A stretch of 64,000 bases of DNA from Cephalotus follicularis (lineage: Eukaryota; Streptophyta; Magnoliopsida; Oxalidales; Cephalotaceae). A program made the translations under genes and the position numbers. Below are positions 1,643 to 62,032 of this stretch, one piece after another. Numbering within the stretch: position 1 is the stretch's first letter; every line of letters begins with the position of its first letter. Under the pieces are notes generated by a model that did no database searches, had not been told where the DNA came from, and saw only the letters and a list, made by a program, of their open reading frames with translations. The DNA lies in contig BDDD01000569.1 in NCBI GenBank assembly GCA_001972305.1, forward strand, positions 186,001 to 250,000, given 5' to 3'.

Positions 1643-2629
1643 TGAAAGACTACAAGAGGGGGGTGAATTGTAGACTTTAAATAAATTATGAACTTTTTCG
1701 AGAAATAAGCCAACAATAGAAATTAGACCAACAATTAAAAAATAACAATTATAATAAACAGTTATACTTAAGAAAGTAAAGAGATAGAGTAGAGGAATGC
1801 AAACACAGTTTATAGTGGTTCGGCTTAATCTCTTGCCTACGTCCACTTTTCTCAAGGACCTCCTTGAGTTTCCACTAGTATCCGACCTCGAATACAATAA
1901 TCGTGATTGACCTCAATCACACATACAAGGGTTCACTCCCCTCAAATGTTTGAATAAAATACAAGAATGAATAGCTTTTTGTATCACCTCTCAAAGGCTT
2001 GATATAAAATAAATTTGCACACAATGATAACTTTGAAATAAGAACCGAAAAACTCAATGTAATACGATAATTGCTTGTGTAACTTGGATGCCTTTTCTTG
2101 GTTGTTCTTGAGCCTATTTATACTGTTTTCTGGCGATAGAATAATGAAATAGCCGTTGTAGTCTTGTAGCCGTTTGATGCACATTTAGGAAATTTTGTAG
2201 TAGTCTTGTAGCCGTTTGATGCACATTTAGAAAAATTTGTCCTGAAATTATGCGTTGATAAGATAATATCTTATCCAAATTCTTGATCAAAGTGTCGCCG
2301 CCTTAATTTTAGGCGTCGACTTCATGTGCTGAACTTTGTGCTAATATTGTCGCCTCTTTAAAATTTAGTGCTAGAGTATCACTTCTTTCAATTCTTGAGT
2401 GCTGGCGCTTTGTGCGTATTGGTATATGACTTCTTTATGTAAACTCTCGACGCCTTCAAAAATTACTATCTCATAGGCGTCGCCACATCAAAATTAGGTG
2501 TCGACCGTTTGCTTGTTTAAAAAACAATTTATATCTGCTTTGTGTTATTGTTTATCTTGCACAAAACAAACTCATTAGTGGCAAATATGTTATCATCAAA
2601 ATTAGGAATTGAGACATTAAATGTCAACA
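1643..2629 (-). repeat. Complete LTR (3' LTR) of the Sirevirus-like insertion
   Basis: Read on the minus strand it starts TGTTGACATT at 2629 and ends CTTTCA at 1643. It contains a short direct repeat around 2145-2225 and several GTCGCC/GTCGAC cores, including pairs at 2291/2311 and 2475/2496 that are spaced 20-21 bp. Confidence 0.8.
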
Positions 2630-3674
2630 ATCTCCCCCTTTTTGATGATGACAAAAAATTTGCTAGAAAATTTGAATTGAATGTAAAAGAGATTATGAAA
2701 CGTAATGAACAAAACAAAAATTACTCCCCCTCAATTTATGCTCTTTCTGTCATTGTGCAAAAACAAAAACTTGCATACTCCCCCTGCATAATTTGAACAC
2801 AACCAGCAAAAATGCAAAACACAAAAATGTGCTTTACCAAAATTGTCAACAGTCCTCAAATGTGCAAAATGTGTTCATAGAGTCAACATCCTTGTGCAGA
2901 ACATCAAAAATGCAGATATGCAGCAAAAAAAATGGTTCTAAGCTCTGCACATCAAAATGCACCCTGCATAGCAAAATACCAAATGCAAATATGCCAGACT
3001 ACACAGCCTGCAAGTACCACAATACTCAGCCTACAATGTCAGCACCCCTGCAAAAAAAATTCTCATGAACAACCTACAAACATAGCATGAACAACCTGCA
3101 AAAATTATCAAACAGCCTGCAAAAATGACTAACAATACACAGCTTTCATAAAAAAACGGCAGCCCTTCAATAACTAACACTATCCTGCAAACCATCAACA
3201 CACAGCCTGCAATGCAAACACAGCAGCAACATTACTGCAATATATGCTCTATTATGAACTCAAAAATATATGCCCCTGCAACACAACACAGCAGCACACT
3301 CAAAAAATATATATGCCCCTGCAACACAACACAGCAGCAATAGCATAGCAGCAACCAAAAAATATGCACAAAAATATGCACACATGCAAAGCATGGACAG
3401 CCTGCATAAATACTCAGCACCAAAAATATGCACACATGCAAAGCATGGACAACCTGCATAAATACTCAGCACACAAAGCATGGACAACCTGCATAAATAC
3501 TCAGTACACAACAATATGAAAATGTCAACAGCTGTAACATAATAACATAATAGCTTCTCCCCCTTTTTTTGTTATCATCAAAAGGAAATCAAATATAAAG
3601 AGATTAATCAAGATCATCCAACATGTAGACAACATTCATCATTTAAACAAGTAATTCTACTAGACCAAAATGTT
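2630..3674 (-). repeat. Coding-free interior with repeated polypurine-like tracts and tandem repeats
   Basis: On the minus strand AAAGGGGGAGAT abuts the LTR (the functional polypurine tract). Further GGGGGAG tracts occur near 2724, 2778 and 3556. Between them the sequence is A-rich on the plus strand, with recurring CCTGCAA words. It has two direct-repeat sets: one of about 33 bp near 3265 and 3309, and one of about 34 bp starting near 3386, 3438 and 3473. No primer-binding site is found near 3674, which fits loss of the adjoining LTR end. Repeated polypurine tracts are a known Sirevirus trait. No conserved protein is encoded. Confidence 0.65.
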
Positions 3675-4123
3675 ACATTTAGGAAATTTTGTAGTAGTCT
3701 TGTAGCCGTTTGATGCACATTTAGAAAAATTTGTCCTGAAATTATGCGTTGATAAGATAATATCTTATCCAAATTCTTGATCAAAGTGTCGCCGCCTTAA
3801 TTTTAGGCGTCGACTTCATGTGCTGAACTTTGTGCTAATATTGTCGCCTCTTTAAAATTTAGTGCTAGAGTATCACTTCTTTCAATTCTTGAGTGCTGGC
3901 GCTTTGTGCGTATTTGTATATGACTTCTTTATGTAAACTCTCGACGCCTTCAAAAATTACTATCTCATAGGCGTCGCCACATCAAAATTAGGTGTCGACC
4001 GTTTGCTTGTTTAAAAAACAATTTATATCTGCTTTGTGTTATTGTTTATCTTGCACAAAACAAACTCATTAGTGGCAAATATGTTATCATCAAAATTAGG
4101 AATTGAGACATTAAATGTCAACA
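3675..4123 (-). repeat. Truncated LTR (5' LTR) of the Sirevirus-like insertion
   Basis: It matches 2181-2629 over its full 449 bp with one difference noticed. The remaining 538 bp of the LTR and the adjoining primer-binding site are missing, probably by a deletion between LTR and interior. Confidence 0.8.
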
Positions 4124-4648
4124 TGGATTTTCAAGAAGCTCGGCAAGAAAAGGAAAAGAAACAGAATAGGAGTGATTTCCGAGGACAGAATTATGAACAA
4201 CAAGGTGAAGGTAAACAGCAAAAGAAGAATCATAATCAGAATAAGGATGGTAACCCCAATGTTCAGATTTCTTTGTGTGATACGTGTGGGAAACGACATC
4301 CTGTTGGGACATGTTACAAGGCCACTGGGGCATGTTTTGCTTGTGGACAAAAGGGTCATCTCTTTAAGGATTGCCCGAATGCTCGTACTAGAAATAAAGG
4401 AGGAGATGGTAATGATGCCAGACAGCGCAACATTGGAGGTAGAGTTTTCGCCTTAACGACACATCAGACTGCGAACGCACCAGGTATTGTTTTGGTTTTG
4501 TTTTGTTTTGGTAACTGTAACATGTTTGTTTTGATTGATAAGTCAATCTATGCTATGATAACTGAATCGTTTGTTATGCATCATGGTGTGTCTTTTCTGC
4601 TATTGATTCCGATTGATATATGTTAAGATTTCGGGACGAAATCTTTTT

Positions 4649-4660
4649 AAGGGGGGAAGG
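4649..4660 (+). other. Polypurine tract of element A
   Basis: AAGGGGGGAAGG sits immediately before the TGTCATACCCCG start of the 3' LTR and would prime plus-strand DNA synthesis. Confidence 0.85.
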
Positions 4661-4661
4661 A

Positions 4662-7661
4662 TGTCATACCCCGTTCATTCACGTGCATATTTCGAATTTT
4701 GAAATTGATTTATTGGTTGTATTGGCATATTTTGTTTTGGCATAATGTGCTCTTTGGGTTATGTGAATTTAAATTTAGGACTTTTATTTTATTAGGATAT
4801 GATTGTTGGAAAAACAAAAGTTTATTGTTTTGTATTTTAAAATCAGTTTTTAAAATAATAATATTGGTTGGATTATGTATATGAATAGGTAAAATTAATT
4901 GAATTATATTTCGTATAAATATTAAATCGGTTTTTATTATTAATGTGGTAAAATTATTTTAATTGGAAAACAAATCCTTTTATTTTGGGATTTATAATAC
5001 CAATTATATTGCCTTTGGATAATTGATAAAATGTAATTATAAATAAATAATAATTGTTGTTGGTATTTTTAAATCATCAAAATTGGTTTTTAATACAAAA
5101 GGATTTTTTTTAAAAAGGGAATAAATATTGTATTTTGGCAAATAAAAGACTTTTCTTTCTATTTCTTCCCTCTCTTCCCGTTTTTCTTCCTTCTCCCTCA
5201 GAAAAATTGATTTCTTTCCCTCAATTCTCACCCACAATCCCGAAATTTTGCTCATTTTCCTTATTATAACAGATTTGGACTTCCTTTTTGGTTTGGCATG
5301 ACCTAAATTGCCTTTTCTAAGTTGTATATGTATGCTATATGTCATGATTGTGCCTCCATTGTGTGCCTCTCTCCTAGAGCCAAACCTGCAAGATTAGTAT
5401 TCGTTTTGTTCTCCTTTGATCATCATACCAGGTTTGTCTTCCTCTGTTATTATGGTTTAACAATTAAAATTAGTTTAATCATATCCAATACATGCTCATG
5501 TGGTCGCTAGTGAGTTTTAGTTTGATTGTTAGTGAGTCCTGGAAAGTCTAATAATGGCAGTAAACAAGTTTTAAACTTAATAGTTAGTGTTTGACAGGGA
5601 ATTGATTAATAGTTATGCATGCTATGAAGTAGAATTTTCCTTCCTTTAAAAGAAAGATCACCCACTGCATGATTTCTGGATGTTTAAATGCAACTGATAA
5701 GTCACATAAGTCATTTGTAAGTGTTTAAAATCAACTGGTATTGTGATAATGGAGTTTTAACAGAAAATTGGAATTGAATTGCTGTGTTTTTGCTATTCTG
5801 TCACCCAGAACAGTCGACTGCCTCTCAAAGCAGCCGACTGTTTTGCCTTCAACAGTCGACTGGACCCCTGTCACAGTCGACTGGATGCTACCCAGTTTGA
5901 GTAGTCGACTGCCACCCTTTGAGTAGTCGACTGGATTCATACCCAGTTGAGTAGCCGGCTGCCTATGCCACACAGTCGACTGGAATTACCCAGAAAATTT
6001 TCTGGTTTCAAGTTTTGTCATCCGTTTAGTTTTGTAATGAATTGGACCATGTTTTAAGCATTGTTAAACTACTGTTTGATGTTTGAAAGTGATTTTGAAC
6101 CCTTGTATGAATGGTATTGTGTCTTTTAGATTGTTGTGCTTCGAGGGACTTTTAAATTGTTGATCAATTCGTCTATATTTTTGTGATCGCTTAAGGTACG
6201 GATGTTTCGTTCCTTGATAGCCTCCTACTGTTTTTATTATGATAAAATATAGTTTTACTTTATGTATAACGTATGGATTTTCTATCATTCCTTGGCTATA
6301 TGTTTATCAAACTAAACTTAGTTTTATGATCTAGTTTTATAGACTTGATTATGGTTTATGATATGTCACGTAAATAAATTGGTTTTTAACATTTCATGAA
6401 ATTAAAATAATTATATGCTAAGATACGCTACGATATTTTATGAAATGATCATCTCTTTATAGTGGAAAAATAAATGAGTTGATACTACGTAATGATTTTT
6501 GCTATGTCTAGAAATGTTTGGAAAACGTGTATATATTTTTAAATTGATTTTTAAAAATAAAACAATGTTTTTGAAATAAAGATATACACAGAGATATTTC
6601 ATACCTATGGAGGTACCATATGCACGTCGTGGGCCTGGCACGAGGACGTGACATTTCCGTAGCAATGTGATGCGACTACGGCGTCTCTCTTTGTTTTGAA
6701 TAAATCCCATGAGGTGGATTTATGGATCGGATATGTTGTGATAGAGGCGCATGGGTATACTCTAGTTATATGTTATGTTAAGGATACGGATTCTGGGGAT
6801 TGATTGTGTAGTGCCGTACACGTCCTTCCGTTTGGCATGTGGGTGTCACGAACCCCTTGCACCTATGCATATGTGTATGCACTTTGGATCTCAGTAATGA
6901 GATTATGGAGTCGGATAAGTCTCTGTTTATTGTTTTTCATTTGAATATGTTTTGGAATGTTGAACTTAGATTATAAAATTGAATAACGCTTGAAAATTTA
7001 ATACTCGTTTGAATTGATTGTATGACCACTTATCTTCACTCTCTTTGAAAATAATGTTAATTTGCATAGAGCATATGATACTTAAAGATTCAGGTATTTT
7101 TTTTCTATCTCATAAATTATCGTTTTATGTTTTATGATTCTATGTTCGTACTGAGGTTTGCTCAGCCGCGTTTTTGTTTCCATGCGGCAGGTACTATGGG
7201 ACAGCATCCGGGCAATGTGTGATGAGCGAGATGTCACCTATGATAAGGATTACTTAGGGGATGGACTCGTTTTTGCTTAGTTATTTTTATGGTCATGTTA
7301 GGACCCCTTAAAACTATATTATGTTTTTCAGTTTTGACTTAGAATTATGTTTAAGCTTTTGGTTTATGTTTTAACTTTCAGTTTATGTTTAAGTTTCATA
7401 TTTTGAATAAAGTTGCTAGACTATTATTAGATTAAAATTGTTATGTTTAGACCATCACGCAATTTGAATTAAAGATGAATTAATAATTTGATAGTAAGAA
7501 TAAAGGCGAACCTTGATTTATAGTTAAAAATGAATACATACTAAGTTAATAAATTGATAAAAAAAATGAAAAAGAATAAAATTGAGCCATGTTATAAGAT
7601 CAGTTATGAATAGTTTAGGATTAGGACCCGTGACGACTCCCTCCGAATCGGGGGTGTTACA
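4662..7661 (+). repeat. Element A complete 3' LTR (3.0 kb)
   Basis: The LTR begins TGTCATACCCCG and ends GGGGGTGTTACA. It has no coding potential. Landmarks shared with the LTRs of elements I and J are the block around 6600-6690 (CGTGGGCCTGGCACGAGG), the GTAGTGCCGTACAC word near 6810, and the block near 7150-7195 (TTGCTCAGCCGCG followed by CATGCGGCAGGT). A cluster of palindromic cores lies at 5811-5982. Promoter and polyadenylation positions cannot be fixed by eye. Confidence 0.85.
5811..5982. repeat. Array of eight CAGTCGACTG-type palindromes in element A LTR
   Basis: Core starts are 5811, 5831, 5853, 5874, 5902, 5923, 5952 and 5973. Five are perfect NAGTCGACTG and the others differ by one or two bases (CAGCCGACTG, TAGCCGGCTG). 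Steps are 20, 22, 21, 28, 21, 29 and 21 bp. Spacer words such as TTTGAG recur. The array lies about 1.15 kb into the LTR and has no ORF. Confidence 0.85.
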
Positions 7662-11389: not shown

Positions 11390-13508
11390 TGTAATACCCT
11401 GTACCTATTTTTAGAGCATTTTATCTTAAGGCCTTATTTGTCAAGGAAAGGACTTAAGTGGAATTTTGGTAAGTTAATTTAAACATGTGGACATGGTTAG
11501 TTTGGGATATTAAATTGTTTTAATGGATAGCTTCTTGAGGAAGCTTGATGTTCCCAATGTTGCGTTTGGATAAGTTTTGGCAGTTGGTAAGAGGGCTGGC
11601 AGAGCCTTCTTGGTAACTGGAGTTCGGCTTGAGAGAGAGAGAAGTGATAAGTGAGAGAAAGAGCTGGGTTCTTCTTCTTCTTCTTCTTTCCCTTCTTTCG
11701 TGAGTGTTTTGATTGCTCTCTTTACTTTTACGCTGTTAAGGTGAGCTCTCCTCTTCCCTGGTTTGTGTCGTGTGGTTGCACGTTGCGTTGGGATCGAGGA
11801 GGGGGATGATAGCCTGGTTTGGCTGGTTATGTTTTCTGTTCATGCATGTGTTATGTCTTCTTCTTGATCTGATATGTGTTAGTTTGCAGACGAGGACCCT
11901 GTTGCTGTGACTGAGCATCTTGGGGTTGGTCGATGGTAGATTGAGGGGATTTGTGAGTGGGACATTCTCTTCTTTCTATTACTTGATATCTAGTGTGCAT
12001 GTCGTTATCTTTTGGTGGAACGTTTTCTGTGGGATTTGGATCCCTGTTACAGTTGTTCATGTTGTCATCCTGTTCTTGGCAGAGCTTGAGAGCTCGGGTG
12101 GTTCTTGGGTTGAATGTATGTTGTTTCCTCTAACGGTTGTTGTTTGTGTCAGACGATCTCTCCTTCTGTTCATGGTTCCTCTAAGATGTGGGATGCACCG
12201 GGATGTGTGGATGGGATGCACTGGGATGTGCGGATGCAATGCATGGGTTCGGACTTGTCACGCCCCCGTTTTTCCGTGAAGGCAACGTTAAAGTGGTAAG
12301 GCAATCAACACAACATAATTCAGCTTATGCGATAAAACGTAAAAGCAAAAACCTTCAATAGCGGAAGCAATGACATGAAATAAGCTGAAATTAAATATGT
12401 ATCACGTATCCCATACTACGTGATACCCACAAAGTTTATATAAAACCCAACAACATTGTCGATCGCCCATAAACGGAGCGTGATAATATAGTACGAATAA
12501 ATAAACCACGTTACAATAATCCAAAAGTCATTGTTCCAAAATCCAATACATAACAATATAAGAACAACTCAGTCTTCTCCTTAAGTCTCCTTGCGCTACT
12601 CCATATCAAACCTCACTCCATCAATCTGTTACAGTAGGGGTTAGCCTTTGTCCTCACTCGGCTAAGTGAAAAGACTCATAAATACAGTTCGAGGTATATG
12701 ATAATGAGCAACATGAATGAATGCATTATGATGAAGTACAATATATATATATCACAGTATATATATCACAGAATATACATGTATAAAGTATATGCATGTT
12801 CACAGTACAGGTATAACCTCATAAGGCTATATCAACACAAGCAGCAAGTATGTCCCCAAAAAGGAAGCAGACAATCAAGTCGTCATGACCGTCGCCACCT
12901 CCTGGTACCAACGTCGTGCACTCTTACTCCAATCCCCGTTTGCGAACGGTTTGAAGCAAGTCCTCCGTACAGGTTGCTTAGCACGACGGCTAAACAATCA
13001 ACAAGTTATTAGCACAGCGGCCAATAATCAACAAGCACAAACACCGTACAATACAAGTCAAGCAATGAATATAATTACTTGATCAAATATATTTGTTTAA
13101 AATATAAAACTCCGTCTCAGGTTGTAATAAGTTATAAACTTGAAACAACACAATTTGAATTGTGTAACCAATCCTTTAAAACATTTCTCCGTCTTTGGAA
13201 AAAACTTTCCCCAGTCATTTCAAATATATATATATTCATATGTTGACAAATATACATTTTCGTACAATAATGATTATAATAATCATACAAGCCTTTCAAA
13301 ATGATTAAAACATTTTAAAATCAACCATAATGCAATTCACAGTAATAGTACAAACATATGCTCAGAATGCATCTAGGATCGTTCCTAGAGTCGTTTCGGG
13401 TCTAGCGGGTCCCATTCGAGCAAAATTTCTTCAAACAGGGGGGGTAGGCATCAACGTTTATCCCAAAGGTGTCGACGTCCTTACCCTAAGGTGCCAACAA
13501 CTCATGCA

Positions 13509-16500
13509 TGTCACACCCGTTCCCTGTAACGACCAATATCCTACCGAGAACGGATATGACGTTCCACATGACAACTTCCTTTCGGAAGTCACCATATGGA
13601 TTTTTATAACTTAAAAACCGCTTCAAGACTTTCCAAGACCATTCATCAAATTTGACTTTTCCAAAACTTTGAAAATTTTTTTAACTCTTAAATTTTTACG
13701 AAAATCGGGCATGTAGTATCCGTTTATCGGACTATGCCCCCTGTAAAGAAAAACACATTTATAAACACACTCCCGAAGGAGGAATCAACAGTTTATAATG
13801 GGGCTCAACCCTCAGCAAACCACATTTTAAAGCAATAAACCTGGGTTGGGCTCAGCCTCAACCGTTTCAACAAGCATTAAAAGTAAATCTATAGGGTTCA
13901 GCCCTTTTTTAAAAGCAAAACCATAAACTGAAATCATTAATATAAAACACGAGTAAATGCGTAATTTAATTTCTGATGTAGTATGCTATGCATGTATTGA
14001 ACTCTGGTAGCATGCCCTGCCCTTGTGGTCCATCTACAGCAACAACTAGCAACTCCTTGCCATCATCTGAAATGAAAACACTGGGAGGGAGTTAGTCCAA
14101 ATGACTAAGTGAGTAGAAACAAAAACATCTCTTGTACATCCATCAAAGAATTGGATGTGCTGAAGAAAATAGAGAATCATATAAAGCAAGAATATGTGCA
14201 ACAACGAGGTAATGTAAATCATAAACAAAAGAAATGATCATTAAGATCCAAAATGATAGTCAAAAACAATAAAGAGATATCGAGATCACAAATGTAAACA
14301 AGATCCATAAACGATATTAAGATTCACAACGATATCGAAATCTCATAACGGAATCCACAAATATAATAGAATCCATAAAAGGAAACTCGATACTCAGCAG
14401 TGGGATCCATAACTATAAACATAAGTCAAGAAGTGAACAAGATCCACAAAAGATAGGACGATCCACAAGGATATCAAGCACATATCAATACTCAACGATA
14501 AGTAACATAAGAATCCATGGGACAAATCTCAATGATCAAGTCAATGCTCTACAAATACGACAGAATCACAATAATATCAATATACATAATTATCAAGAAA
14601 TCAAAGACATAATCATGGATAATAACTCAAAGTATGTGCCCATAGGGTCATAAAATATAGGAGGATGCTGGTACCAATCAATCACTGTCTCATATCTGCC
14701 GTCATATCACATGACAATACAATCTGCTCTACCGCCAAATCACATAGCATCATATCATATCACCGCCAATCACATGGCATCATAATACAACCGCTACAGC
14801 AATAATATAAACCAATAGGCTACAGGATGTCATCATCATCTATCATACACCGGTGTAGAGTGCCTATGTAAACATAACATATATACCTCGACCGAGGGGA
14901 CGTCGTTATTTCACGGATCTGCCCTCGTCGGAACCACATATCTGAACCTCGACCGAGGGGACGTCGTTATTTCACGGATCTGCCCTCGTCGAAATCACAT
15001 AACAAAACCTCGACCGAGGGGACGTCGATATTTCACGGATCTGCCCTCGTCGGAATCACATAACAGAACCTCGACCGAGGGGACGTCGATATTTCACGGA
15101 TCTGCCCTCGTCGGAATCACATATCACAACCTCGACCGAGGGGACATCGTGTACCACACGGATCTGCCCTCGTCGGAATCACATAGCCAATACGGTCAAA
15201 TGGGTCAGGGACGGAGCGTTGGCTGCACTCACACTCAGCATACCATCATAGACAATAGTATGCCGCAGATCCAGGTATGGAACCCGGGTGCAGTTCCCAC
15301 ATAGCACCCCATCATAGACCAATGGGCATACTAAGGAGAGTTGATCGTCGAACGTACCCTCACCATTGACCGGTAATGCATATCAGAAATCCCGGTACCC
15401 AGCATCAGAACATAACACGGTATCACAATATGACAAGTCACAATATCACAAATGTGAGAAGGTGACCAAGTCACCCAGAACATCGAGCATACACCTGCTC
15501 GGAAATCATATCCCCAATAAACATGCTCAACACAAGACATACGGGATTTCAAATCCCAATCGAATCATAACACATCATGGAACACAAAAGGGCACATGAA
15601 TGTATGAGAATCTCAAAGACAAATAAAGCTACGGAGGAAATGTCCCACTCACGGATATCTCAACTAAACACAGAGAATGTGACATTGTCACCAGAGTCGG
15701 ATATAATCATTTAATTCACAACAATGATGTCACAATCACATTATCATACTTTCTAACAATCATTAGGTATAAATCAAGAATGTCAAGAGCAATAGCTCAA
15801 GTATGACAATACGGAGATAGGAGAAACAAATATATCTCCGCAAGAGCCCAAACGGATATAACAATAACACTAACGAAATATGTCCACAGGAGCCAATGCG
15901 GACATAACAAAGAGACAAGAAGAATATACAATCAATCAACGTGTCATATCAATATGAATATTCAATCGAAATATACCGATAAAGGGTTCAAGCGAACGAC
16001 TCGGAAATCGATTCCAATTAAACTATCAATAAGGGATTCCAAGAGCAATTATGGAATCAACATATCACAAGCCATAGAAGTCAACAAACAGAATATCAAC
16101 AAGCTTAGGATATCAACAATTCAGAATCAACAAGCTATGACTTTTAAAGATCACAATAGAGGCAATATCCATCACAAGGAATATCAACAGCAACTAAGAT
16201 AAAATAAGGAAAGAGATGTTCTACTCACAATATCAAAGCCGATACTCCCACGAACTAACCCCTCGAAGCTTTGAATCGGCTATCGGATTCTCGTCATCGT
16301 TTTGTAACTCTATCAACCGTCACACTGCATAAACAATACATATCGGTTACTTCCTACACATACGCAATTAACACGGTGAGTCACCGAAGCTTTGGCCAAT
16401 TTTTGATCAACCTGCCAAAGTTCCGACGACACCTAAAACAGCCCCTAAAACAATTAATCAACTCACATTATTGATCGAAACTCACGGCGACACGCCCAGG

Positions 16501-16932
16501 AACGGGCAGCCACCACCGGCAGTGAGTTGACTCACTGAGTCAACTCGCCGGTCGTCCAACAATTTAGGCCGCTTCACAAAAAAGTCACAAAACCACAAGG
16601 CCTACTCATCTCGGAGAAGAAGGGGTACCGTCGGACGGAGGTGTCGCCTGCAAGTCTGCCCGGTTCAGTCCGGCGCTTCGCCCGACTCTCTCTCCCGGCG
16701 TCTCTCTCTCTCGCGCGCTATCTCTCTCTCTCGTCTCTGTTCTGTCTTCATTCTCGGGCGCATAGCGCCCGAGTGTGCTCTTTTTCTTTTATTTGTCTGG
16801 CGCGTCTAGCGCCTTCTAGACGCGCCAGACCTCTTTTTTTTTGTTATAATATTAACAATAATAGCAAGCACAATTTAATACTATGCTTACGTCATGAACA
16901 TCGACCTCGTAAAAGTGACACGGGGTGTCACA
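13509..16932 (-). repeat. Element D left LTR (3' LTR, 3424 bp)
   Basis: The plus-strand ends are TGTCACACCCG and GGGGTGTCACA. Compared with the right LTR it has ~690 extra bases (about 14757-15440, including a 61-bp tandem array) and lacks ~360 bases corresponding to 22203-22565. A perfect hairpin (GAGTTGACTC, 3-nt loop, GAGTCAACTC) lies at about 16525-16547. The 250-codon-scale ORFs of the region are absent, and the ORF at 16641-17048 crosses the LTR edge and is spurious. Confidence 0.85.
14886..15190. repeat. Five-unit 61-bp tandem repeat in element D left LTR
   Basis: Units start at 14886, 14947, 15008, 15069 and 15130, exactly 61 bp apart. Each begins with the inverted word CCTCGACCGAGG, followed by GGACGTCG and a shared ACGGATCTGCCCTCGTCG block. 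The last unit is the most diverged. The right LTR lacks the whole array. Confidence 0.95.
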
Positions 16933-16949
16933 ATCTCCCCCACTTAAGA
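16933..16949 (-). other. Polypurine tract of element D
   Basis: The minus strand reads TTAAGTGGGGGAGAT directly before the TGTGACACCCC LTR start. Upstream, the phrase TTTGAGGACAAAATTT is the usual end of a gypsy pol region. Confidence 0.85.
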
Positions 16950-16959
16950 AATTTTGTCC

Positions 16960-17640
16960 TCAAAATTTACTCGCAGCACATGATGAAGAAAATTGAGTAC
17001 TGTTTGCGCATTTCTTCCATAGTCTCACAAGAAGTATCTATCAAATGATCTCTCTAGAAGAACTGATCTCGTAAGTCATGAATCTGTACAGGTACACTCT
17101 CAACATCAATACATGGAAGCTATCATGGATACATTCTAGCTCTATAGATAAGTCGAATTGGTAGACAATTGCACCAATACATAGAGTGGTGTCGAATGAT
17201 CCAATGTCGTTGAAACTGAGTCTTTCACAAGTTTTCTAGCTTAATCACTCTTGTACCGTAATGCCTGTAGTAACACTTTTTCATCCAGCTGAAACTTCAT
17301 GTTCACTCGACATTTGTTTACAAACCCCTCACCGATACTATCCCAACATGAGTGTATCTCGTGTTGCCAACCATACAACATTCTTGGAGGTGTCAAGCCA
17401 CTAGCCTGAATCTATAAAAGTCATGAAACAAGACCATCTTAGAACTATTCCCACTCAAGCACGCTTTCGCTGCGCCACTCTAATGGAATCTGGTGCATCA
17501 GTGCTGGTATGGTTACTCCTCAAAGTGGTCTAGATCATAGATGAGCTGAATCAATAGATGTGAGCCGTTTAGGCAAATCATTTCAGTATGACTTAAATCG
17601 TATCGTACCTTAACACTGTCCGTGTCGGTCGTATAGTGAA
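16960..17640 (-). pseudogene. pol: Degenerate Ty3/gypsy integrase C-terminal relic
   Basis: Conceptual translation of the minus strand, crossing stops and frame changes, gives landmarks in the correct order. A piece like the conserved histidine/E-helix region of integrase lies near 17560. PPRMLYGWQ followed by CWDSIGE near 17350-17400 matches the ALYGRKCRSP...CWDEVGE block. VPVQIHDLRDQ near 17070-17110 and EEMRKQY near 16990 match the chromodomain-like C-terminus. No run exceeds a few dozen residues. The relic supports a Tekay-like origin for element D. Confidence 0.7.
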
Positions 17641-19767
17641 ACCCATCGCAACATGTTCCCATATGACGTCAAAGACTACATGAGCCATGCATTGAAGCCA
17701 ACAGGCCCGTTTGTGGGGACAACAAGGCACACGAACTTCATATGTGTCGAAGCGACAACGCTTGAACAACGAATAAGGAACAAAGTCCTATGTTCATTTT
17801 ATATTCCGTATCCAACTCTACGAGAAAAAGTCCAGCAGCCCACAACAACGTCAAATGAACAACGTATGCTTGGAGCACACAACTATTACATAATTAGCCA
17901 CTCCTGAAAGGGTATCAGACTAAAATCTTCCAAGGAACATTGAGATTCTGTTTTCATGTGTATGCAACAGATGATGATCTCAAACGCAATCCACCAATAG
18001 CAAGGATGTCCGAAGACAAAGCTGAAGAGGCATGCGTATCGATCGATGAATCAATATGGAGCCAGCCAAGCCACGCAATCAAAATCCCGCTCAAACGCCC
18101 GTACATATACAAGCAAGAAGTTATTTGAACGAACCACAATTCAAAACGATGAATAGTCAACATCAAATGTGTGGAAACGTCGAGAGAATCCCATGCTAGC
18201 ACCGTTAGGCGTGATATAAAAATGAGTAAAACTTTGGTGCGGATAATCAAGGCTGACAATCGAAGCATCATATACAAAATGCACAAGCTCAAGGCACTAT
18301 AAAGGCAGGTTGCACATACTCACGTCATCACGTGTACAAAACACAATCACACATGGAAGAACGTGCACATAAACACGCAGACAAGCCTCGTACAAGCACT
18401 ACATTATACACGCACAACCGTCGAGCAAACAACAAGGAGTGCACATAATAGCATGCGTACAAACTCATCGTGTGGACAACGAATGCATCGTCTGCATAAA
18501 ATGCATACAAGCGCACATCAAGATGCACGTACAACAGCCAAGCGTAGAACAATTAGCATCAATAGCACAAGGGCACAACAATCATAGCACACTCTTCCAC
18601 TGGAGACTCTAAAGCAGCTGTAATTGCTTGAAGTTTCGGTATTGCTCCACATTAAGTTATTGGTATGTTGAACATCTCGTTAACAAAATTGCGATATTTC
18701 TCTTCATGTTGTTCTACCAGAAGTGCTCCCTCAAGCGACGACACACTTGGTATTTCTAGGTTGTATCGTATAAGATGAACTATGGCCTTCATAAGGTCTT
18801 ACGTTTAACATGCGACGGACATAACATGTCCGTATACATCAGCGTTCCGTTGTCTCGAAGCGAGCAATCAGTGTGATTACAATTCTATCACCAAGCATCG
18901 CTGATTCGGTCCTGCAATATCGGTCTCTCCCGGAGAGTAGACGATAGAGCTCCCATGCATAAGACTGACAAGTTCACGTGGAATGATCGGAAAATTCATC
19001 CGAAGATAGCAAGAGAAGTACAAAACTTCTTACTCAAAGCATTTGTAATCGTGTTTGCATTGCACTAAGGGATTCGTCAGCGTAATTGTAGACCTTAATC
19101 GTCTCCATCGAGCTCTGCTCGAGGTTCAAATCTCTGTCACTGAAGATCTGTATAAAGCCAGCATTCATTTACAATAGGTGATGTCATCTCGACATAACCC
19201 TTATAGGTTAAATCCTTCACTGAACTCCTGCTAACGGTTCCACTAAGTACTCAAACAAAGACATACTATACTGGTTGCCTAAACTTCTTGAATAATTTGT
19301 CACTGTCAACCATTCATCACTATGATGCTATCTTGAAACATGTACAAGAATCATGGAGTAGTTTCTCTAATGCATTTAAAGTGCTCTGTCATGCACATCG
19401 TGCCTAAATAGCTTACAAAGTCTCGAGTAGTTAGGCTATAGCCCGCTAGAACTCTGATTCAGACATATCGATTTATAAAGGGCTATAGAAAAGATAATGT
19501 CCTCGCAGCTAACTTGGCCGCTAGTCAAACAAAAGATGGTATCCAAGAATATCTCCGATTTTCAAATCCTTATCCTTACATCTTATTCTAGCTCTACATC
19601 AAATATCTATCTAGTAACCATAAAATATCTTACTATTTATATCCACAACGGGACCATCTTACCGACCACGGGGCATGCTACCGAACACATGACATGCAAT
19701 GCATGATATGCAAGAGTTTAAAAGCCTTTTGAAAACATTTCACCTTAAAAGTATAGAGAATCTAAAA
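17641..19767 (-). other. Element D interior without recognisable genes
   Basis: About 2.1 kb where gag, protease and reverse transcriptase would be expected. ORFs are at most ~110 codons, lie on both strands and show no domain I recognise. I regard the stretch as decayed internal sequence. Confidence 0.6.
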
Positions 19768-19785
19768 CCAAAAGCTCTGATACCA
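19768..19785 (-). other. Primer-binding site (initiator Met-tRNA), element D
   Basis: The minus strand reads TGGTATCAGAGCTTTTGG, 3 bp from the right LTR. It is a perfect match to the standard TGGTATCAGAGC primer site and fixes the orientation of the element. Confidence 0.92.
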
Positions 19786-19788
19786 AAC

Positions 19789-22700
19789 TGTCACACCCGT
19801 TCCCTGTAACAACCAATATCCTACCGAGAACGGATATGACGTTCCACGTGACAACTTCCTTTCGGAAGTCACCATATGGATTTTTATAACTTAAAAACCG
19901 CTTCAAGACTTTCCAAGACCATTCATCAAATTTGACTTTTCCAAAACTTTGAAAAAAAATTTAACTCTTAAATTTTTACGAAAATCGGGCATTTAGTATC
20001 CGTTTATCGGACTATGCCCCCTGTAAAGAAAAACACATTTATAAACACACTCCCGAAGGAGGAATCAACAGTTTATAATGGGGCTCAGCCCTCAGCAAAC
20101 CACATTTTAAAGCAATAAACCTGGGTTGGGCTCAGCCTCAACCGTTTCAACAAGCATTAAAAGTAAATCTATAGGGTTCAGCCCTTTTTTAAAAGCAAAA
20201 CCATAAACTAAAATCAATAATATAAAACACGAGTAAATGCGTAATTTAATTTCTGATGTAGTATGCTATGCATGTATTGAACTCTGGTAGCATGCCCTGC
20301 CCTCGTGGTCCATCTACAGCAACAACTAGCAACTCCTTGCCATCATCTGAAATGAAAACACTGGGAGGGAGTTAGTCCAAATGACTAAGTGAGTAGAAAC
20401 AAAAACATCTCCTGTACATCCATCAAAGAATTGGATGTGCTGAAGAAAATAGAGAATCATATAAAGCAAGAATATGTGCAACAACGAGGTAATGTAAATC
20501 ATGAACAAAAGAAATGATCATTAAGATCCAAAATGATAGTCAAAAACCTTAAAGAGATATCGAGATCACAAATGTAAACAAGATCCATAAACGATATTAA
20601 GATTCACAACGATATCGAAATCTCATAACGGAATCCACAAATATAATAGAATCCATAAAAGGAAACTCGATACTCAGCAGTGGGATCCATAACTATAAAC
20701 ATAAGTCAAGAAGTGAACAAGATCCACAAAAGATAGGACGATCCATAAGGATATCAAGCACATATCAATACTCAACGATAAGTAACATAAGAATCCATGG
20801 GACAAATCTCAATGATCAAGTCAATGCTCTACAAATACGACAAAATCACAATAATATCAATATACATAATTATCAAGAAATCAAAGACATAATCATGGAT
20901 AATAACTCAAAGTATGTGCCCATAGGGTCATAAAATATAGGAGGATGCTGGTACCAATCAATCACTGTCTCCTATCTGCCGTCATATCACATGACAATAC
21001 AATCTGCTCTGCCGCCAAATCACATAGCATCATATCATCACAAATATGAGAAGGTGACCAAGTCACCCAGAACATCGAGCATACACCTGCTCGGAAATCA
21101 TATCCCCAATAAACATGCTCAACACAAGACATACGGGATTTCAAATCCCAATCGAATCATAACACATCATGGAACACAAAAGGGCACATGAATGTATGAG
21201 AATCTCAAAGACAAATAAAGCTACGGAGGAAATTTCCCACTCACGGATATCTCAACTAAACACAGAGAATTTGACATTGTCACCAGAGTCGGATATAATC
21301 ATTTAGTTCACAACAATGATGTCACAATCACATTATCATACGTTCTAACAATCATTAGGTATAAATCAAGAATGTCAAGAACAATAGCTCAAGTATGACA
21401 ATACGGAGATAGGAGAAACAAATATATCTCCGCAAGAGCCCAAACGGATATAACAATAACACTAACGACATATGTCCACAGGAGCCAATGCGGACATAAC
21501 AAGGGGACAAGAAGAATATACAATCAATCAACGTGTCATATCAATATGAATATTCAATCGAAATATACCGATAAAGGGTTCAAGCGAACGACTCGGAAAT
21601 CGATTCCAATTAAACTATCAATAAGGGATTCCAAGAGCAATTATGGAATCAACATATCACAAGCCATAGAAGTCAACAAACAGAATATCAACAAGCTTAG
21701 GATATCAACAATTCAGAATCAATAAGCTATGGCATTTAAAGATCACAATAGAGGCAATATCCATCACAAGGAATATCAACAGCAACTAAGATAAAATAAG
21801 GAAGGAGATGTTCTACTCACAATATCAAAGCCGATACTCCCACGAACTAACCCCTCGAAGCTTTGAATCGGCTATCGGATTCTCGTCATCGTTTCGTAAC
21901 TCTATCAACCGTCACACTGCATAAACAATACATATCGGTTACTTCCTACACATACGCAATTAACACGGTGAGTCACCGAATCTTTGGCCAATTTCCGATC
22001 AACCTGCCAAAGTTCCGACGACACCTAAAACAACCCCTAAAACAATTAATCAACTCACATTATTGATCGAAACTCACGGCGACACGCCCGGGAACGGTCA
22101 GCCACCACCGGCAGTGAGTTGACTCACTGAGTCAACTCGCCGGTCGTCCAACAATTTAGGCCGCTTCATAAAAAAGTCACAAAACCACCAGGCCTACTCA
22201 TCTTCGCCCGTAACTCGCCGAGAATCGGCGGCTGCCGCCGCGCCTGAGCCCCAGCCGAGACGCCATTGCTCCGGTCTCACCACCACTAGCATCCACAAGC
22301 TCCGGTCTACTCATTGGTGGCTGAGGCTCGCCAGGAATCGGCGCCAAAAGCGTTGCCAGAGGCGGCAGCGAGTCAACTCGCTCAGTTGACTCAGACGCTA
22401 AAATCCGGCCATTTCCGGCCGAATCACGCCACAACAACCGTCGAAATGGGGAGAGGTGGTCTTCTAGACCATGACCGCACCCATCCGCGACGCCAAAAGT
22501 GGCGGACGGCAGTGACAGGGGAAACGGCACAGGGGGAAGAAAAAGAAGAAAAGAGGAGAGAGAAGGAGAAGAAGGGGTACCGTCGGATGGAGGTGTCGCC
22601 AGCAAGTCTTCCCGGTCCAGTCCTGCGCTTCGCCCGACTCTCTCTCCCGGCGTCTCTCTCTCTCGTGCGCTATCTCTCTCTCTTGTCTCTGTTCTGTCTT

Positions 22701-22885
22701 CATTCTCGGGCGCATAGCGCCGGAGTGTGCTCTTTTTCTTTTATTTGTCTGGCGCGTCTAGCGCCTTCTAGACGCGCCATACCTCTTTTTTTTTTGTTAT
22801 AATATTAACAATAATAGCAAGCACAATTTAATACTATGATTACGTCATGCACATCGACCTCGTAAACGTGACACGGGGTGTCACA
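19789..22885 (-). repeat. Element D right LTR (5' LTR, 3097 bp)
   Basis: It is the partner of 13509-16932. It has a deletion near 21035-21040 that removed the 61-bp array, and keeps a GC-rich block (22203-22565) that the left LTR lost. GAGTTGACTC-type inverted repeats lie at about 22114-22140 and 22369-22395. The ORF at 22314-22802 lies in this LTR and has no conserved domain. Confidence 0.85.
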
Positions 22886-22915: not shown

Positions 22916-24226
22916 AAGACATTGATGTCGTTCCAAAGACGTCGATGTCTTTATGATACCAGGAGGTATCAGTTCCCGAATCTTGATTCTAGAGGGTAGA
23001 ATCCGGCCCTTTAATCCTTCATATAACGAATCTCACTCTCTCAAGTGTAAGGCATGCTACTGGCTAACAGGGAATGTAACCAGAACATCATTTCATGAAT
23101 AAAACATGCAATTACCAAAGGCAGTTCACCAACAACGGTAAACACTACTGTTTTTGCAATACCCAGAAAAGGCGTCGATGTCTTCCCAAAGACATCGATG
23201 TCTTTCGCATTCACACACGAAGGCATAACATTACTGTTCTACAATGCCCAGAAAAGGCATCGATGTCTTTACTCAAGCATCGATGTCTTTCACATTTACA
23301 CACGAAGGCATCGACTTCCTTATGTAGGCGTCGATGTCTATCCAACCCAGATCGTTTTCTCAATAGTTTTTACACACCAAGACATTATCAAATCCATCCT
23401 TTACACAAACTAGTTCACATATTCATGTAATCATACATGCATGGTTACTCCGTATATCACAGTAGCCATCACAAAAGTCCAGAGATTACAATTCACCCAT
23501 TAACATGCAATTCATCAATGGCATTCATTATCTTAAAACTCAAAATGCATGTATAAGAATCAATACTTTCCCCTACCTTGTTGTTCCACGTTAGGAACTG
23601 GAAAGTCCACCCCTTTATGTTCCAAACTGGTTCCTGCAGCCTCTAGGTCCTTCCCGTTGCTGCAAGCCACCAAGTCCAAGTTCCAAGCTCCAACCATGCT
23701 CAACAATGGTGTCTCTCTCTTTCTCCCACTCAATGGTTTCCTCCTCTTCCTTCCCTTTGGTGTTTTAAACGAGTGGGAGAGGTGGGGAGGGGGTTGTTCT
23801 TATGTAGAGTGCTCCCTCTCCCTCTTTCTCCCTGCATTCAATGAACACTCTCGTGTTCTCTTCCTCTTTCCCAGTGAATTTCTGAATTCCATTTTGTTTC
23901 TTTCTCATGTTTTCTGTAGGTTGCATGCACACCCACACTATTCATGTTCTTCCTCCTTCCTCAGTCATGCGGGTCAGGAGGCATTATGCATGACCAACAC
24001 GTCTCCTTCCCGTGCCTCAAAAATTTCCCCATTGCATGTTATTTTGTCAGTTCATAACGTCACTGATATTCTTTTCAAAGACGTCGACGTCTTCTATAGA
24101 CGTCGATGTCTTTTCCCTTTTTATACGTGGGGGTCGATGTCTTTGCATACATCAACGTGCATGCACATGCATTCACGTACACCGCTACTTCCATAGGCGT
24201 CGATGTCTTTCCAAAGACATCGATGC
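22916..24226. repeat. Paired CGTCGATGTC-type cores in solo LTR E
   Basis: Cores of the form G(A/G)C(A/G)TCGATGTC occur in pairs whose starts are 19-20 bp apart: 22916/22936, 23171/23191, 23256/23276, 23307/23327, 24080/24099 and 24196/24216. A further single copy lies near 24131. Several are preceded by CAGAAAA or followed by TTT. The pairs sit 40-100 bp or more apart in non-coding LTR sequence. Confidence 0.8.
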
Positions 24227-33924: not shown

Positions 33925-33935
33925 TTCCCCCCTCC
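33925..33935 (-). other. Polypurine tract of element G
   Basis: The minus strand reads GGAGGGGGGAA immediately before the LTR start TGTAATAACC. Confidence 0.88.
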
Positions 33936-33945
33936 TTATAAAAAT

Positions 33946-37320: not shown

Positions 37321-37365
37321 GAAATGGTACCTCCCACAACATAAGTAGACTCTGGTACGTCATCC

Positions 37366-38556: not shown

Positions 38557-38642
38557 TCTATTTCCTATAAGGAATGATAATAACCATTAGGAAACAAATC
38601 ACTTAATTTTCTGAGAAACTTATGCCAGCTTGAGCATATAAG

Positions 38643-38660
38643 GAATATGCTCTGATACCA
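38643..38660 (-). other. Primer-binding site, element G
   Basis: The minus strand reads TGGTATCAGAGCATATTC, 4 bp from the right LTR. The first 12 bases match the initiator Met-tRNA site. Confidence 0.92.
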
Positions 38661-38664
38661 TGTT

Positions 38665-41118: not shown

Positions 41119-41806
41119 TCACAATTGAAACTAGAGTTTACCTAACTCTTATGTCTCAATTCACAATCTTTTCCATGTGTCAAGAAATAATCCCGAGTCT
41201 TTCACAGGAATTATATCCTCTTGACAATGTCCCAATGTCTCTTACAGGGATTGGACTAAAATCAACTAGCCAGACGCTTAGGCATATCTATATCAGGCCC
41301 AGTACTAAGTATGGTATACATCATGTAGCCTGTTGCCGAAGCATAAGTTTGCCTATTCATGCGTATCCTCTCCTCATAAGTCTTGGAAGACATCCTCTTG
41401 GAAAGGTGAATTCCTTGGCTAATTGGCAGTAAGCCATATATGGAATTCATTCCGTACCATTTTAGCTCTCTACTGATGTACTGGCTTTGGAATGGTCTGA
41501 ACAACCTACTTGATCTATCTCCTATAGATCTTCATTCTCAAAACGTAGGAAGCCCTTCCCAAATCCTTTCCGGAGAAGTTCTTGGTTTACTGTATTTCAA
41601 CATACCTACATCATTCTCTATGCGTAGTATGTCTTCTACATACAGTGCCAAGAAAGTTATTTCTGGGTTATCCTTTTTCCGGTAGATATTAGGTTTATCC
41701 ATATATTTGATGAAATCAAAATGGATGTTTCAGCTATGGGATGCTTGCTTAAGGTCATAAACCTTTGGAGCTTGCACCTCTTGTGCAAGTGCTCCTTGGA
41801 TGTAAC
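41119..41806 (-). pseudogene. pol: Copia reverse transcriptase segment (fragment)
   Basis: Minus-strand landmarks, in order: YDLKQASHS near 41760 (canonical YGLKQASR), FLAVYVEDIL near 41650 (the catalytic YVDD with D changed to E), GIHLSKRMS near 41405, YASATGYMMYTIL near 41320 and TGPDIDM. Frames shift several times. The segment continues across element G into the RNase H piece at 31479. Confidence 0.85.
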
Positions 41807-43084: not shown

Positions 43085-44330
43085 AGCGCCATGTTATATA
43101 AGTGTCGACGCTTTTGTTGAAAGCGTCGACGCTTTGTGCGAGATGTGCAACCTGTGCACGATCATACAACATGGGCACGTCTTCTCTCTCATCTCCAGCC
43201 GTTATCTCCCATCCATGCATGATATGGACATTTGGGGATCATAGCTTCGAACTCCCTAGGAGTGATGACCATGTTCCTATGTGTATGGGAGAGTGGGAGA
43301 GTGGGAAAAAGGGCTGGTGAGTGCATTTTCTGCAGAAAATTGGTCTGTGTTTTTGAAGAGCTTTTGCTGGGCAAAATTATAAGAGACTTCTCTCTGCACT
43401 TGGATGATTCTCTTCTCTGGATATTCACCAAGCAAGTTACTTATTTAGGGTGGATTGCTTTTGACAACATTTGTCAAATTCAATCTTCTCTCTATAAGCT
43501 TTGAGAGAGAGAGTGAGTGAGCGAGCAAAAACTTTGGGTGTTCCATTTGTTGTCTTGGATTTGATGTTGCAAGGAGCTGCAGTACCTGGGATTTGAAGGA
43601 GTGTATTGACAGTGTCTTCCCAAGTGTGTACCGGAAAAGTTTGAATGAGCCATCACCTATTGGTATATCTCTTGGTTCTTCTTTACACTACCATGTTTTT
43701 GCCATGCTTGTGTGTCACCATTGCTTGTCTTTGGTGACACCGATTCAATTCTTGTGATGATGTGGTGATCCTTGTGGCTTGTGTCCTTGCTTTTATGGAG
43801 TGCTTTTGTTTTTAAAGGGTGTTTTCCCGCTACATTTATGTATATTATAGTTTTATTCTACACCATTTAACCCTTTGTCCATTTTGGCACCGGAAATGGT
43901 TTTACCATTTCTATCAGTGGTATTAGAGCCTCCCACATCATCCTTAGTCGAATTCATGCCTAGGATGATTAACTGATTAAGAGTTTAATAAAAGGATGTG
44001 TTTTATGGCTAAACTAATTTTCAAAGTGCCTTGGTGTAAATATATATGAAATTGGAATATGTATGAAATTGGATTTCTTTGTAATATTAACTTGGAGATT
44101 ATGTTACAATGGGTTTTTGAACATGTTTTGGAAACCTACATAGTGTAGTTTGAGGCCATCAAATGTCTGGTTTGGGCAGATATGGTGAAAGCCTTGTGTT
44201 CAAACCTTCTTTTCAGCAATTTTTGAACTGCAGAAACTGTCCAGGAGACTTAAGCATCGACGCTTGTCGTATTGTATTGATGTTGTATCGACGCCTTGGT
44301 ATAGCGTCGACGCTTATTTGTGTTTAATGT
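43085..44330 (+). repeat. Copia-type LTR end, primer site and interior start (fragment H)
   Basis: The LTR ends TTCTATCA at 43916. A primer-binding site, TGGTATTAGAGCC (43918-43930), follows, matching initiator Met-tRNA with one change. No gag follows, and the interior stops near 44330 at another LTR. AAGCGTCGACGC-type cores occur at 43100, 43121, 44252, 44284 and 44302. The LTR start is cut by the preceding element. Confidence 0.6.
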
Positions 44331-57311: not shown

Positions 57312-57336
57312 GGAAATCTCAGGATGAGATTTCTGT

Positions 57337-59954: not shown

Positions 59955-60238
59955 GCTTGAACCACTTGAGGAACAACTTGTGCAACCACTTGCCTTACCA
60001 GTTCCTCCAAAGTTGGCTCATTTCTTACGCCCTCTCGTGCAACAGCCGGCTCGGCTTCTCGATTTACTTTCCTTGGTCATCCGCCTCTACGTGCCATCTA
60101 CGAATGAGAACCGAAATATGACAAAACAAATAGCGAACTGGTTAAACACATGCCAAAACGATTATCAAGTAATAGCCTTAACCCAATTTCTACCCATGTC
60201 ACAGGTCAAACCTAGATAGGCTTTCTAGGGAACGAAAA

Positions 60239-60252
60239 CCTATTCTCTGATA
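60239..60252 (-). other. Primer-binding site, element I
   Basis: The minus strand reads GGTATCAGAGAATAGG, the same text as in element A. The LTR end normally preceding it is missing and is replaced by a (TA)n(GA)n tract at 60261-60285. Confidence 0.75.
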
Positions 60253-60853
60253 CCCTCAGGATATATATATATAGAGAGAGAGAGACCCCGTAGACCGATC
60301 ACACTACCACGGTAGGTGTCATGTCCTTCGTGCCAAAGGAACATACCTATGAGACCTCATAGGTAAGTTTTTCTCTGTATGTTACTATGCTAAAAACATT
60401 GTTTTATTCTAAAACAATTTAAAACATAACAGCATTTCTAAACAATTTCTGAACATATCTGAAATCATAATCATATATGTATCTGAAAGTTAACGTACTT
60501 TTGATGGTGAAAGTCATGTTTGTTTAACACATTTTCGATAGTGAAAATCATGTACATATTATAAAATAAGTAATATTAACCTTAGTAATAAAACAGATTT
60601 TATTCAAGTTATACCGAATATCCGATAACAAAAAAAAAATCCATAAAATCCAAGAATATCCAAGAATAAGAAATATCCGTACCTTAGCCGTTCGAATAAT
60701 CTAAACAAATCCGAATACAGAAAAAAGCACACTAGGAGTATCCTAACCTGCACCAAAGATAATATCAAGACCTAGACATTTAAGTCCAAACATCACAAAA
60801 CATAGAAAATGCAATTATCAAAACCGCCAGAGAAAGCATTGAAGTGCATGTCA

Positions 60854-61094
60854 AAGCGTTGGCGCTTAACATAGGCATCGATGGTTTTGACACAACAATG
60901 ACCAAAATATTGAACAAAGCGCCGAAGAACAAAATAGCAAAACACGACATAAGCGTCGACCTGTAGACAAAAGCGTCGACGTTTAAGCCATAAGCGTCGA
61001 CGGATAAACAAAACAGTCGACGCTTAGACATATGCATAGCGTTTAAAAATAGGTTTTACACACACAGGCATCGACGCTTACGATAGGCGTCGAC
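60854..61094. repeat. AAGCGTCGAC core array in L/I LTR
   Basis: Core starts are 60854, 60873, 60951, 60971, 60992, 61012, 61066 and 61085, so steps within clusters are 19, 20, 21, 20 and 19 bp. A decayed unit probably lies at 61033. Confidence 0.8.
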
Positions 61095-61902
61095 GCTTTA
61101 CGTCAAAACATGAAACCAGTTGCAGTACCTCAGTTTGAAAACCATGAACAAAACCCTAAATCCTTAAACACAAGTCATAAACAACTATATGTGGGATACG
61201 AAATATGGCTTATAAGTTTGTAAACGTCAGCATATACATATATCAATGCATGAATATATACCATATACAAGATACACATACATATCAACAACCTTGAAGG
61301 TAATATTTTCTGACATCATAACAGTTTGCATAGATGAATAAATTTCAGTTTTTCTTTAACTTTTAATCTCAAAACAGTAGCATGCAAGTTCAAAAACGTG
61401 ACCTCCATGGTTGTAAAATACCATTATAACATTTCAGATAAACATAGATATATAGATTATAGTTTGATCATAGTAACATCAATTTTCGAAATATATTTTT
61501 TGGTTATACTCATTCTTGAACAGATTTTGTATATGACAAGATATAACCATGTTTTTGATCATTCTACAATCCTCTAGTTTGCAAAGTAGAGAGGAAATGG
61601 TAACAATGAAAATAGTAGTACGACATACCTTCAAATAACGCAAACAGATGATGAGAGAATGCAAGAAAATGGCTGCCACTTTTGAGAAGAAAATGTAGGT
61701 GCAGTGTCTTTTAAAAAGAGAAAAGAAATTCTAGTTTGAATGGCTAAAACGTGTAGACTAATGACAGAAATCTGAGGATTAAAACATTTCCAAATGAGTA
61801 AAAACGCGTCCAGCTAAAAAGGAAATCAGATAACCAACTTCGGGAAAGAATCCTTCTTTCCAAAAACAAAGCACCGTCCAAGCAAAAATGGAAACTCGAC
61901 TT

Positions 61903-62032
61903 AAGCGTCGACGGTAAAAGCAAGGCGTCGACGCTTACCCCTTTTTAAAACTAAAGGCATCGATGTCAAGACTATGGGCATTGACGTGTTACACTAGGCC
62001 TAAGCATCGACGTTTTTGATGAAGGCATCGAT
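61903..62032. repeat. Second core array in L/I LTR
   Basis: There are three pairs of GCGTCGAC or GCATCGAT cores with starts at 61903/61923, 61955/61976 and 62002/62023, each 20-21 bp apart. Confidence 0.8.

Follow-up and report, generated by a model that had tools for sequence, protein, structure and literature searches.

Paired palindromes in the long terminal repeats of gypsy and copia retrotransposons of Cephalotus follicularis: putative sites for a cooperatively binding host protein

The long terminal repeats (LTRs) of several retrotransposons in the carnivorous plant Cephalotus follicularis carry arrays of 10-bp palindromes that tend to occur in pairs about 20 bp apart. In this study, these arrays were analysed in a 64,000-nucleotide stretch of contig BDDD01000569.1 (positions 186,001 to 250,000; hereafter the window), in loci elsewhere and in the whole assembly, and they are found in elements of both LTR superfamilies, Ty3/gypsy and copia. 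The best reading of the sequences is that the repeated motifs known from Sireviruses extend to gypsy elements. With a probability of roughly 0.55, the palindromes would serve as paired dyad sites, lying ahead of the LTR promoters, to which a host protein binds cooperatively.

A previous reading of the window from its letters alone (the sequence-only reading) had reported four 10-mers clustered in LTRs. This was confirmed, at numbers far above chance: CAGTCGACTG is present 7 times, CAGTCGGCTG 9 times, AAGCGTCGAC 5 times and GGCGTCGATG 3 times. For GTCGAC, 33 occurrences compare with 6.1 in dinucleotide shuffles, and for GTCGAC, GTCGGC and GCCGAC cores together 53 with 15.2 (standard deviation (SD) 3.8); these counts take in both LTRs of element G, which are mutual copies. 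Core pairs 19-22 bp apart number 16, whereas 100 shuffles of the window gave a mean of 0.07 and a maximum of 1. Two classes of cores were distinguished. Those of type 1 (CAGYCGRCTG) belong to element A and to element G, in both of its LTRs, and those of the GCRTCGAYGC class to elements H and M and to a stretch at 43-44 kb. The cores hold 1.5-1.8 bits of information per base and the spacers 0.3-0.6 bits, a contrast that is partly by construction because the units were chosen by their cores. CpG dinucleotides reach 42-115 per kb in the arrays and 20-34 per kb in their LTRs; the observed/expected ratio in element A (0.59 in the array, 0.81 in the LTR) gives no enrichment. The LTRs of the element at 49844-59952 contain no core of either class at up to one mismatch.

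Grouped in twos, the cores of the window form 27 pairs with a within-pair gap of 18-22 bp (mean 20.26, SD 0.84), while the 16 gaps between pairs of one array range from 11 to 65 bp. All 12 gaps outside 18-22 bp fall between pairs, an order with a chance of about 2 in a million by hand calculation, for a grouping that was chosen post hoc and includes three units with three mismatches to the motif. The same spacing was recovered from twenty unselected 10-kb stretches, sampled at a fixed coordinate on every thirtieth contig with content ignored (200 kb, 8,531 N). If AT-only sequences are set aside, the perfect 10-bp palindromes met most often in these stretches are GCGTCGACGC (12), ACATCGATGT (6), ACGTCGACGT (5) and CAGTCGACTG (5), and a score matrix trained on the window alone found 318 positions above threshold, against 113 in shuffles. 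Neighbouring cores stand 18-22 bp apart in 14 of the 20 stretches, with at least five such steps in 11. When cores linked at 18-22 bp were joined into blocks, the GCRTCGAYGC class gave 102 single cores, 68 blocks of two, two of three and two of five; the blocks of two have a gap of 20.26 bp (SD 1.16), and neighbouring blocks no more than 110 bp apart are separated by 23-109 bp (43 gaps).

The palindrome pair pattern is genome-wide. Over the 1,577,397,061 bases of the assembly, with the reversed pattern as control, CAGTCGACTG is repeated 15-42 bp further on at 61,175 places (control 202); 38,192 of these pairs lie at 19-22 bp (control 136) and 236 at 23-26 bp (control 1), counts that are not independent events because many copies are related by transposition. 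A TCGA palindrome rearranged from the letters of CAGTCGACTG, CACTCGAGTG, gave 0 pairs (control 5), and for GCGTCGACGC, 4,598 pairs at 15-42 bp were found against 7 for the reversed pattern. Among the first 83 type 1 places listed, all on contig 1, 57 gaps are of 19-22 bp, 12 of 27-28 bp and 14 of 41-42 bp, and 39 of the first 50 listed GCGTCGACGC places fall at 19-22 bp. The proposed two-turn spacing of about 21 bp is therefore very sharp across the genome and best seen within pairs; it is not uniform along an array. Helical phasing of whole arrays, by which all cores would lie on one face of the DNA, was rejected. At a period of 10.5 bp, the phase coherence of one element G array in its two LTR copies is 0.97 and 0.87, but that of the other G array is 0.35 and 0.57, and that of the element A array is 0.28 (0.77 at 10.0 bp).

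In the window, each of the four array carriers that were classified (A, G, H and M) is a Ty3/gypsy element. The supposed presence of both gypsy and copia carriers holds for the genome and was not reproduced in the window, where a Sirevirus-like insert had been proposed: no copia domain was found in the 50 of 147 open reading frames (ORFs) of at least 80 amino acids scanned with Pfam, a scan that broken copia pieces could escape. Copia carriers were seen among six loci (L029-L034), which were picked for holding type 1 pairs and are therefore uninformative on the frequency of such carriers. In L034, 9 type 1 cores lie after a chromodomain gypsy pol. On the opposite strand, a copia Gag (positions 3-809, Retrotran_gag_2, 1.4e-23) comes after a primer site and an LTR that has 17 type 1 cores; the best database hits of this Gag carry the name Cephalotus follicularis, with 93% identity over 72% of the query and up to 100% over short parts. 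Copia Pol_BBD (1.8e-24) lies further along the same strand; the copia element is interrupted, since gypsy domains come after Pol_BBD. By these two domains, its Gag and Pol are of copia type, as in a Sirevirus; no reverse transcriptase (RT) was seen. Its minus-strand junction of LTR and primer-binding site (PBS) is the published Sirevirus sequence CA-ATTGG-TATCAGAGC, and a C-rich run, CACCCCCCCTCTAG, stands 10 bp before the LTR end, the published polyC average being 21 bp. A second copia LTR, in L029 (copia Gag 1e-31), has 12 type 1 cores, and a second, 95% identical copy of the array stretch is located beyond the internal part. The L029 junction, CA-GTTGG-TATCAGAGA, departs from the Sirevirus sequence, and no polyC run is present in the preceding 28 bp. 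At up to one mismatch, type 1 cores in gypsy elements number 8 in A, 11 and 12 in G, 8 in L031, 9 in L034 and 4 in L032; M has none, but 12 of the other class. A further type 1 cluster lies inside the L029 copia element at 7487-7674, just upstream of ORFs at 7698-8882, one of which has a sub-threshold Transposase_32 match. Viral contigs scanned for related plant elements yielded no related locus.

The sequence-only reading considered common descent of the LTRs unlikely. This is not supported. The LTRs of elements A and M are partly homologous and carry arrays of different cores at matching places: the arrays lie at LTR offsets of about 1150-1320 in A and 1070-1213 in M (by hand), and a homologous block follows downstream (1829-2035 in A, 1696-1893 in M). 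Between copia and gypsy LTRs, matches are confined to the arrays, in stretches of 29-97 bp, whereas copia-copia and gypsy-gypsy matches reach beyond them. The spacers in type 1 gaps of copia (19) and gypsy (25) arrays are more alike than in four nulls (P 0.000 when shuffled, 0.009 and 0.027 with two and three fixed end bases, 0.003 when resampled position by position). Because the copia-gypsy likeness is limited to the arrays and takes in the spacers, exchange of a shared unit is favoured over pure convergence. Single cores that accumulated one by one would explain these comparisons less well than whole units that moved from family to family, or than a middle motif under constraint, such as ACAGGG.

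How could such arrays work? The arrays may represent upstream regulatory regions of LTR promoters, in which each palindrome would be a dyad-symmetric site for a dimeric DNA-binding protein. Two palindromes about 20.5 bp (two helical turns) apart would form the functional unit, on which two dimers could bind cooperatively from one face, and an array would consist of several such pair units in tandem, at varying mutual distance. As the units would tolerate various distances from each other, mainly the spacing within them is tight. If two dimers bind cooperatively on one helix face, strict within-pair and looser between-pair spacing, dyad symmetry and variable spacers are to be expected. We infer that a protein binds, that it is of host origin and that it activates transcription. 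In L029, TATAAAA lies 43 bp downstream of the last core of the copia LTR, and in L034 TATAAGAGG, read by eye, about 44 bp after it, so that an upstream activating region would fit. The presence of arrays in both LTRs of element G and the different cores at matching positions of the homologous A and M LTRs support the same explanation. Within one genome, the pair unit occurs in chromodomain gypsy elements and also in copia elements, of which one at least has a Sirevirus LTR/PBS junction. The unit may multiply through duplications of its own length and has probably been passed from one family to another; other families would use diverged TCGA-centred versions (GCGTCGACGC, ACATCGATGT). It is tempting to speculate further, and we do so tentatively, that one and the same host DNA-binding protein, working as a pair of cooperating dimers, was captured by both superfamilies in this lineage, with the pair unit as a mobile cassette between copia and gypsy LTRs in tens of thousands of copies. 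In the gypsy insulator of Drosophila, binding sites for a host protein form a tandem array within a retroelement; in contrast to the arrays described here, these sites are not known to be paired palindromes.

Several observations weigh against the proposed protein sites. No known factor was matched to the palindromes, and when the 400 bp after the last core were inspected in six gypsy LTR segments, a TATA-like box was found in one (G only, at 128 bp). Pairing is clear mainly for the GCRTCGAYGC class. In the unselected stretches, type 1 gave 30 single cores and just 6 blocks of two or more (two each of two, four and six cores), and mixed-class blocks had three (1) and four (1) cores. If a gap of 39-43 bp is taken as a missing unit, blocks of both classes contain one (120), two (61), three (4), four (8), five (4) or six to eight (3) cores. 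Type 1 arrays often continue at 20-22 bp, also with odd unit numbers (five in L030, three in L029), and the frequent gap of 27-28 bp (12 of the 83 listed) is no whole number of helical turns. Furthermore, exactly one 40-bp stretch of two units distinguishes the right LTR of element G from the left, and the spacing could be partly inherited. This difference, together with the differing unit numbers among elements, would be expected if the arrays were selfish tandem duplications, a palindromic 20-bp unit that expands through unequal exchange or slippage and travels along whenever its element is copied, spacing and pairing being only inherited. We regard this as improbable, since the spacers differ while the cores remain alike, within-pair gaps vary by about one base but between-pair gaps by tens, and the spacing is equal in two different palindrome classes.

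Formation of stem-forming RNA, which had also been suggested, is possible but not favoured, and we consider it somewhat less improbable than selfish duplication. Neighbouring palindromes would pair as a stem-loop in LTR transcripts and feed host small interfering RNAs (siRNAs) or serve the element, as proposed for maize Sireviruses, whose LTR palindromic cis-regions are reported to be siRNA hotspots (Bousios et al., 2016, as cited in PMC10760457 and PMC5311732). Predicted RNA folding of nine array stretches gave z from -1.7 to -8.2, with no shuffle as good in seven of nine, but strong folding is expected of any palindrome array. Window partners are more complementary than re-paired ones (energy P 0.005-0.017 in six flank settings with 27 pairs; Watson-Crick P 0.009-0.063), the complementarity stops at pair boundaries (15 neighbours), and loci targeted for type 1 gave P 0.0008-0.22 with 40 pairs, some of them mutual copies. 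In grouped unselected loci, partner complementarity was not significant (T2, P 0.17-0.41, 63 pairs; T1, P 0.25-0.33, 10 pairs), and the covariation, suggestive in the window, was dropped for this reason; an ungrouped test was not used because mixed core classes made complementarity and direct identity both look strong. Moreover, hairpins do not need a spacing of 20 +/- 1 bp, and the signal is no better when G-U pairs are allowed. That the palindromes serve a protein of the element itself (integrase, Gag or an extra protein) would agree with cores that partly differ between families, yet CAGTCGACTG arrays accompany unrelated copia and gypsy proteins and are present in element A, which yielded gag pieces and no other coding part, and this explanation appears very unlikely.

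Palindromes in Sirevirus LTRs, mentioned in the sequence-only reading, are indeed known. The repeated motifs (RM boxes) of Sireviruses are palindromic and element-specific, present in 8-32 copies in the LTR shortly before the TATA box, which lies on average 37 bp downstream of the motif island; further boxes are reported ahead of the envelope gene (Bousios et al., 2010, PMC2829016). In that study, only Ty1/copia elements were compared, the motif was called Sirevirus-specific, and Tnd-1 is an exception without the CGG-CCG core. The Vitis motif CGGTCGACCG differs from CAGTCGACTG in two symmetric bases. In contrast to that Ty1/copia-only description, the motif is found here also in Ty3/gypsy elements, and the RM-box section of PMC2829016 mentions neither a pair unit nor a 19-22 bp rule. 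The main cores, CAGYCGRCTG or GCRTCGAYGC, lack CGG-CCG, as do CAGTCGACTG and GCGTCGACGC, while minor variants such as TAGCCGGCTG contain CCGG. A palindromic motif in at least eight copies per element is common to both, though L032 has 4 type 1 cores. Thus, the window arrays are like RM boxes but not members by the original definition, because the classified window carriers are gypsy and not Sirevirus. With the maize palindromes they share clustering in a regulatory LTR part and strong predicted secondary structure; a difference is that partner complementarity in the arrays here is not significant in unselected loci. No earlier report was recognised in literature on the motif letters, chromovirus or Tekay palindromes, motifs shared by gypsy and copia, or Cephalotus LTR elements, a scope with subscription papers mostly outside it, and no report of palindrome arrays in gypsy elements in the sections consulted of papers including PMC2829016, PMC10760457, PMC5311732, PMC6911290 and PMC11963269.

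Table 1. Array-bearing elements and palindrome arrays of the window (gaps in bp; the letters given in the sequence-only reading match elements with certainty only in part).
Feature	Position	Strand	Remarks
Element A 3' LTR, ~3.0 kb	4662..7661	+	ends GGGGTGTTACA; start from polypurine tract (PPT) and TGTCATACCCCG
Element A 5' LTR copy	349-701		truncated
Element A array, 8 CAGYCGRCTG palindromes, 4 pairs	5811..5982	+	gaps 20,22,21,28,22,28,21; in 3' LTR
Element G, gypsy	31480..41119	-	RT, RNase H, integrase, SH3_Tf2-1, chromodomain below cut-off
Element G left LTR, first array, 6 units	33626..33751	-	gaps 21,26,21,28,20; ~175-300 bp from LTR 5' end
Element G left LTR, second array, 6 units (one decayed)	32794..32907	-	~1.02-1.13 kb from LTR 5' end
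Element G right LTR, first array	40821..40946	-	
Element G right LTR, second array	39933..40086	-	one additional 40-bp stretch, exactly two units
Element H core pair, GCRTCGAYGC class	13448..13478	+	gap 21; left of element C insertion
Element H, eight more cores in four pairs	22919..23337	+	gap 20 each; one core with three mismatches; right of element C
Element H second array, six cores, three pairs	24081..24226	+	gaps 19, 18, 20; one core with three mismatches
Element C	13509..22885	-	inserted in element H array; target-site duplication ATGCA at 13504-13508 and 22886-22890
GCGTCGACGC-class core pair	43102..43132	- (strand and carrier element tentative)	gap 21
GCGTCGACGC-class cores, three good and one weak	44254..44313	- (strand and carrier element tentative)	gaps 20, 11, 19
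Element M LTR	60255..62165 (borders approximate)	-	between chromodomain integrase 62213-62674 and primer-site-like stretch near 60254
Element M LTR proximal array, 6 cores, three pairs	60953..61096	-	gaps 20, 20, 19
Element M LTR distal array, 6 cores, three pairs	61905..62034	-	gaps 20, 21, 21

By direct repeats and Pfam, the window is rich in nested LTR retrotransposons (Table 1). Direct repeats readable as LTR pairs lie at 349-701/7308-7661, 2181-2629/3675-4123, 13509-16934/19789-22887, 31480-33925/38665-41119 (element G, 92% identity over 2,395 aligned bases) and 49844-52439/57351-59952, and the scanned ORFs match gypsy-type Gag, protease, RT, RNase H, integrase and chromodomain. Elements G and M have the domains of Ty3/gypsy chromoviruses (RT-RNase H-integrase with a C-terminal chromodomain) within limits: in G the chromodomain scores 20.8 bits, under the cut-off of 25.1, with RT, RNase H and integrase present, and in M it scores 31.0 bits, with integrase parts only seen of pol. 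Both presumably belong to the Tekay lineage, judging by LTR, PPT and integrase features. In element A, a zinc knuckle accompanies a gypsy Gag match that stays below the threshold, and its gag stretch is similar to the ORF at 49114-49869, which is a clear gypsy Gag; element H has a gypsy Gag match. With a PBS, gag pieces and a PPT, elements A (707-4661) and H (26211-27797) resemble gag-only non-autonomous elements, and no pol domain was found between their PBS and PPT in the ORFs scanned. Element A also contains an inserted 1.9-kb element (2181-4123) with 449-bp direct repeats of 99.8% identity, whose one scanned inner ORF (2709-3065) has no Pfam match. Element C is an LTR element that landed within the palindrome array of another, H, and has a 61-bp tandem repeat of about five copies (14885-15185) in one of its two LTRs only.

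In summary, palindromic LTR arrays had been described as a Sirevirus speciality among copia elements, and the same motif with strict spacing is now found in unrelated gypsy elements of the same plant. An old question thereby becomes testable: do unrelated retrotransposons arrive independently at one host control site, or do they trade it? As a single genome holds exact pairs by the tens of thousands, the factor could be identified directly by DAP-seq or a reporter.

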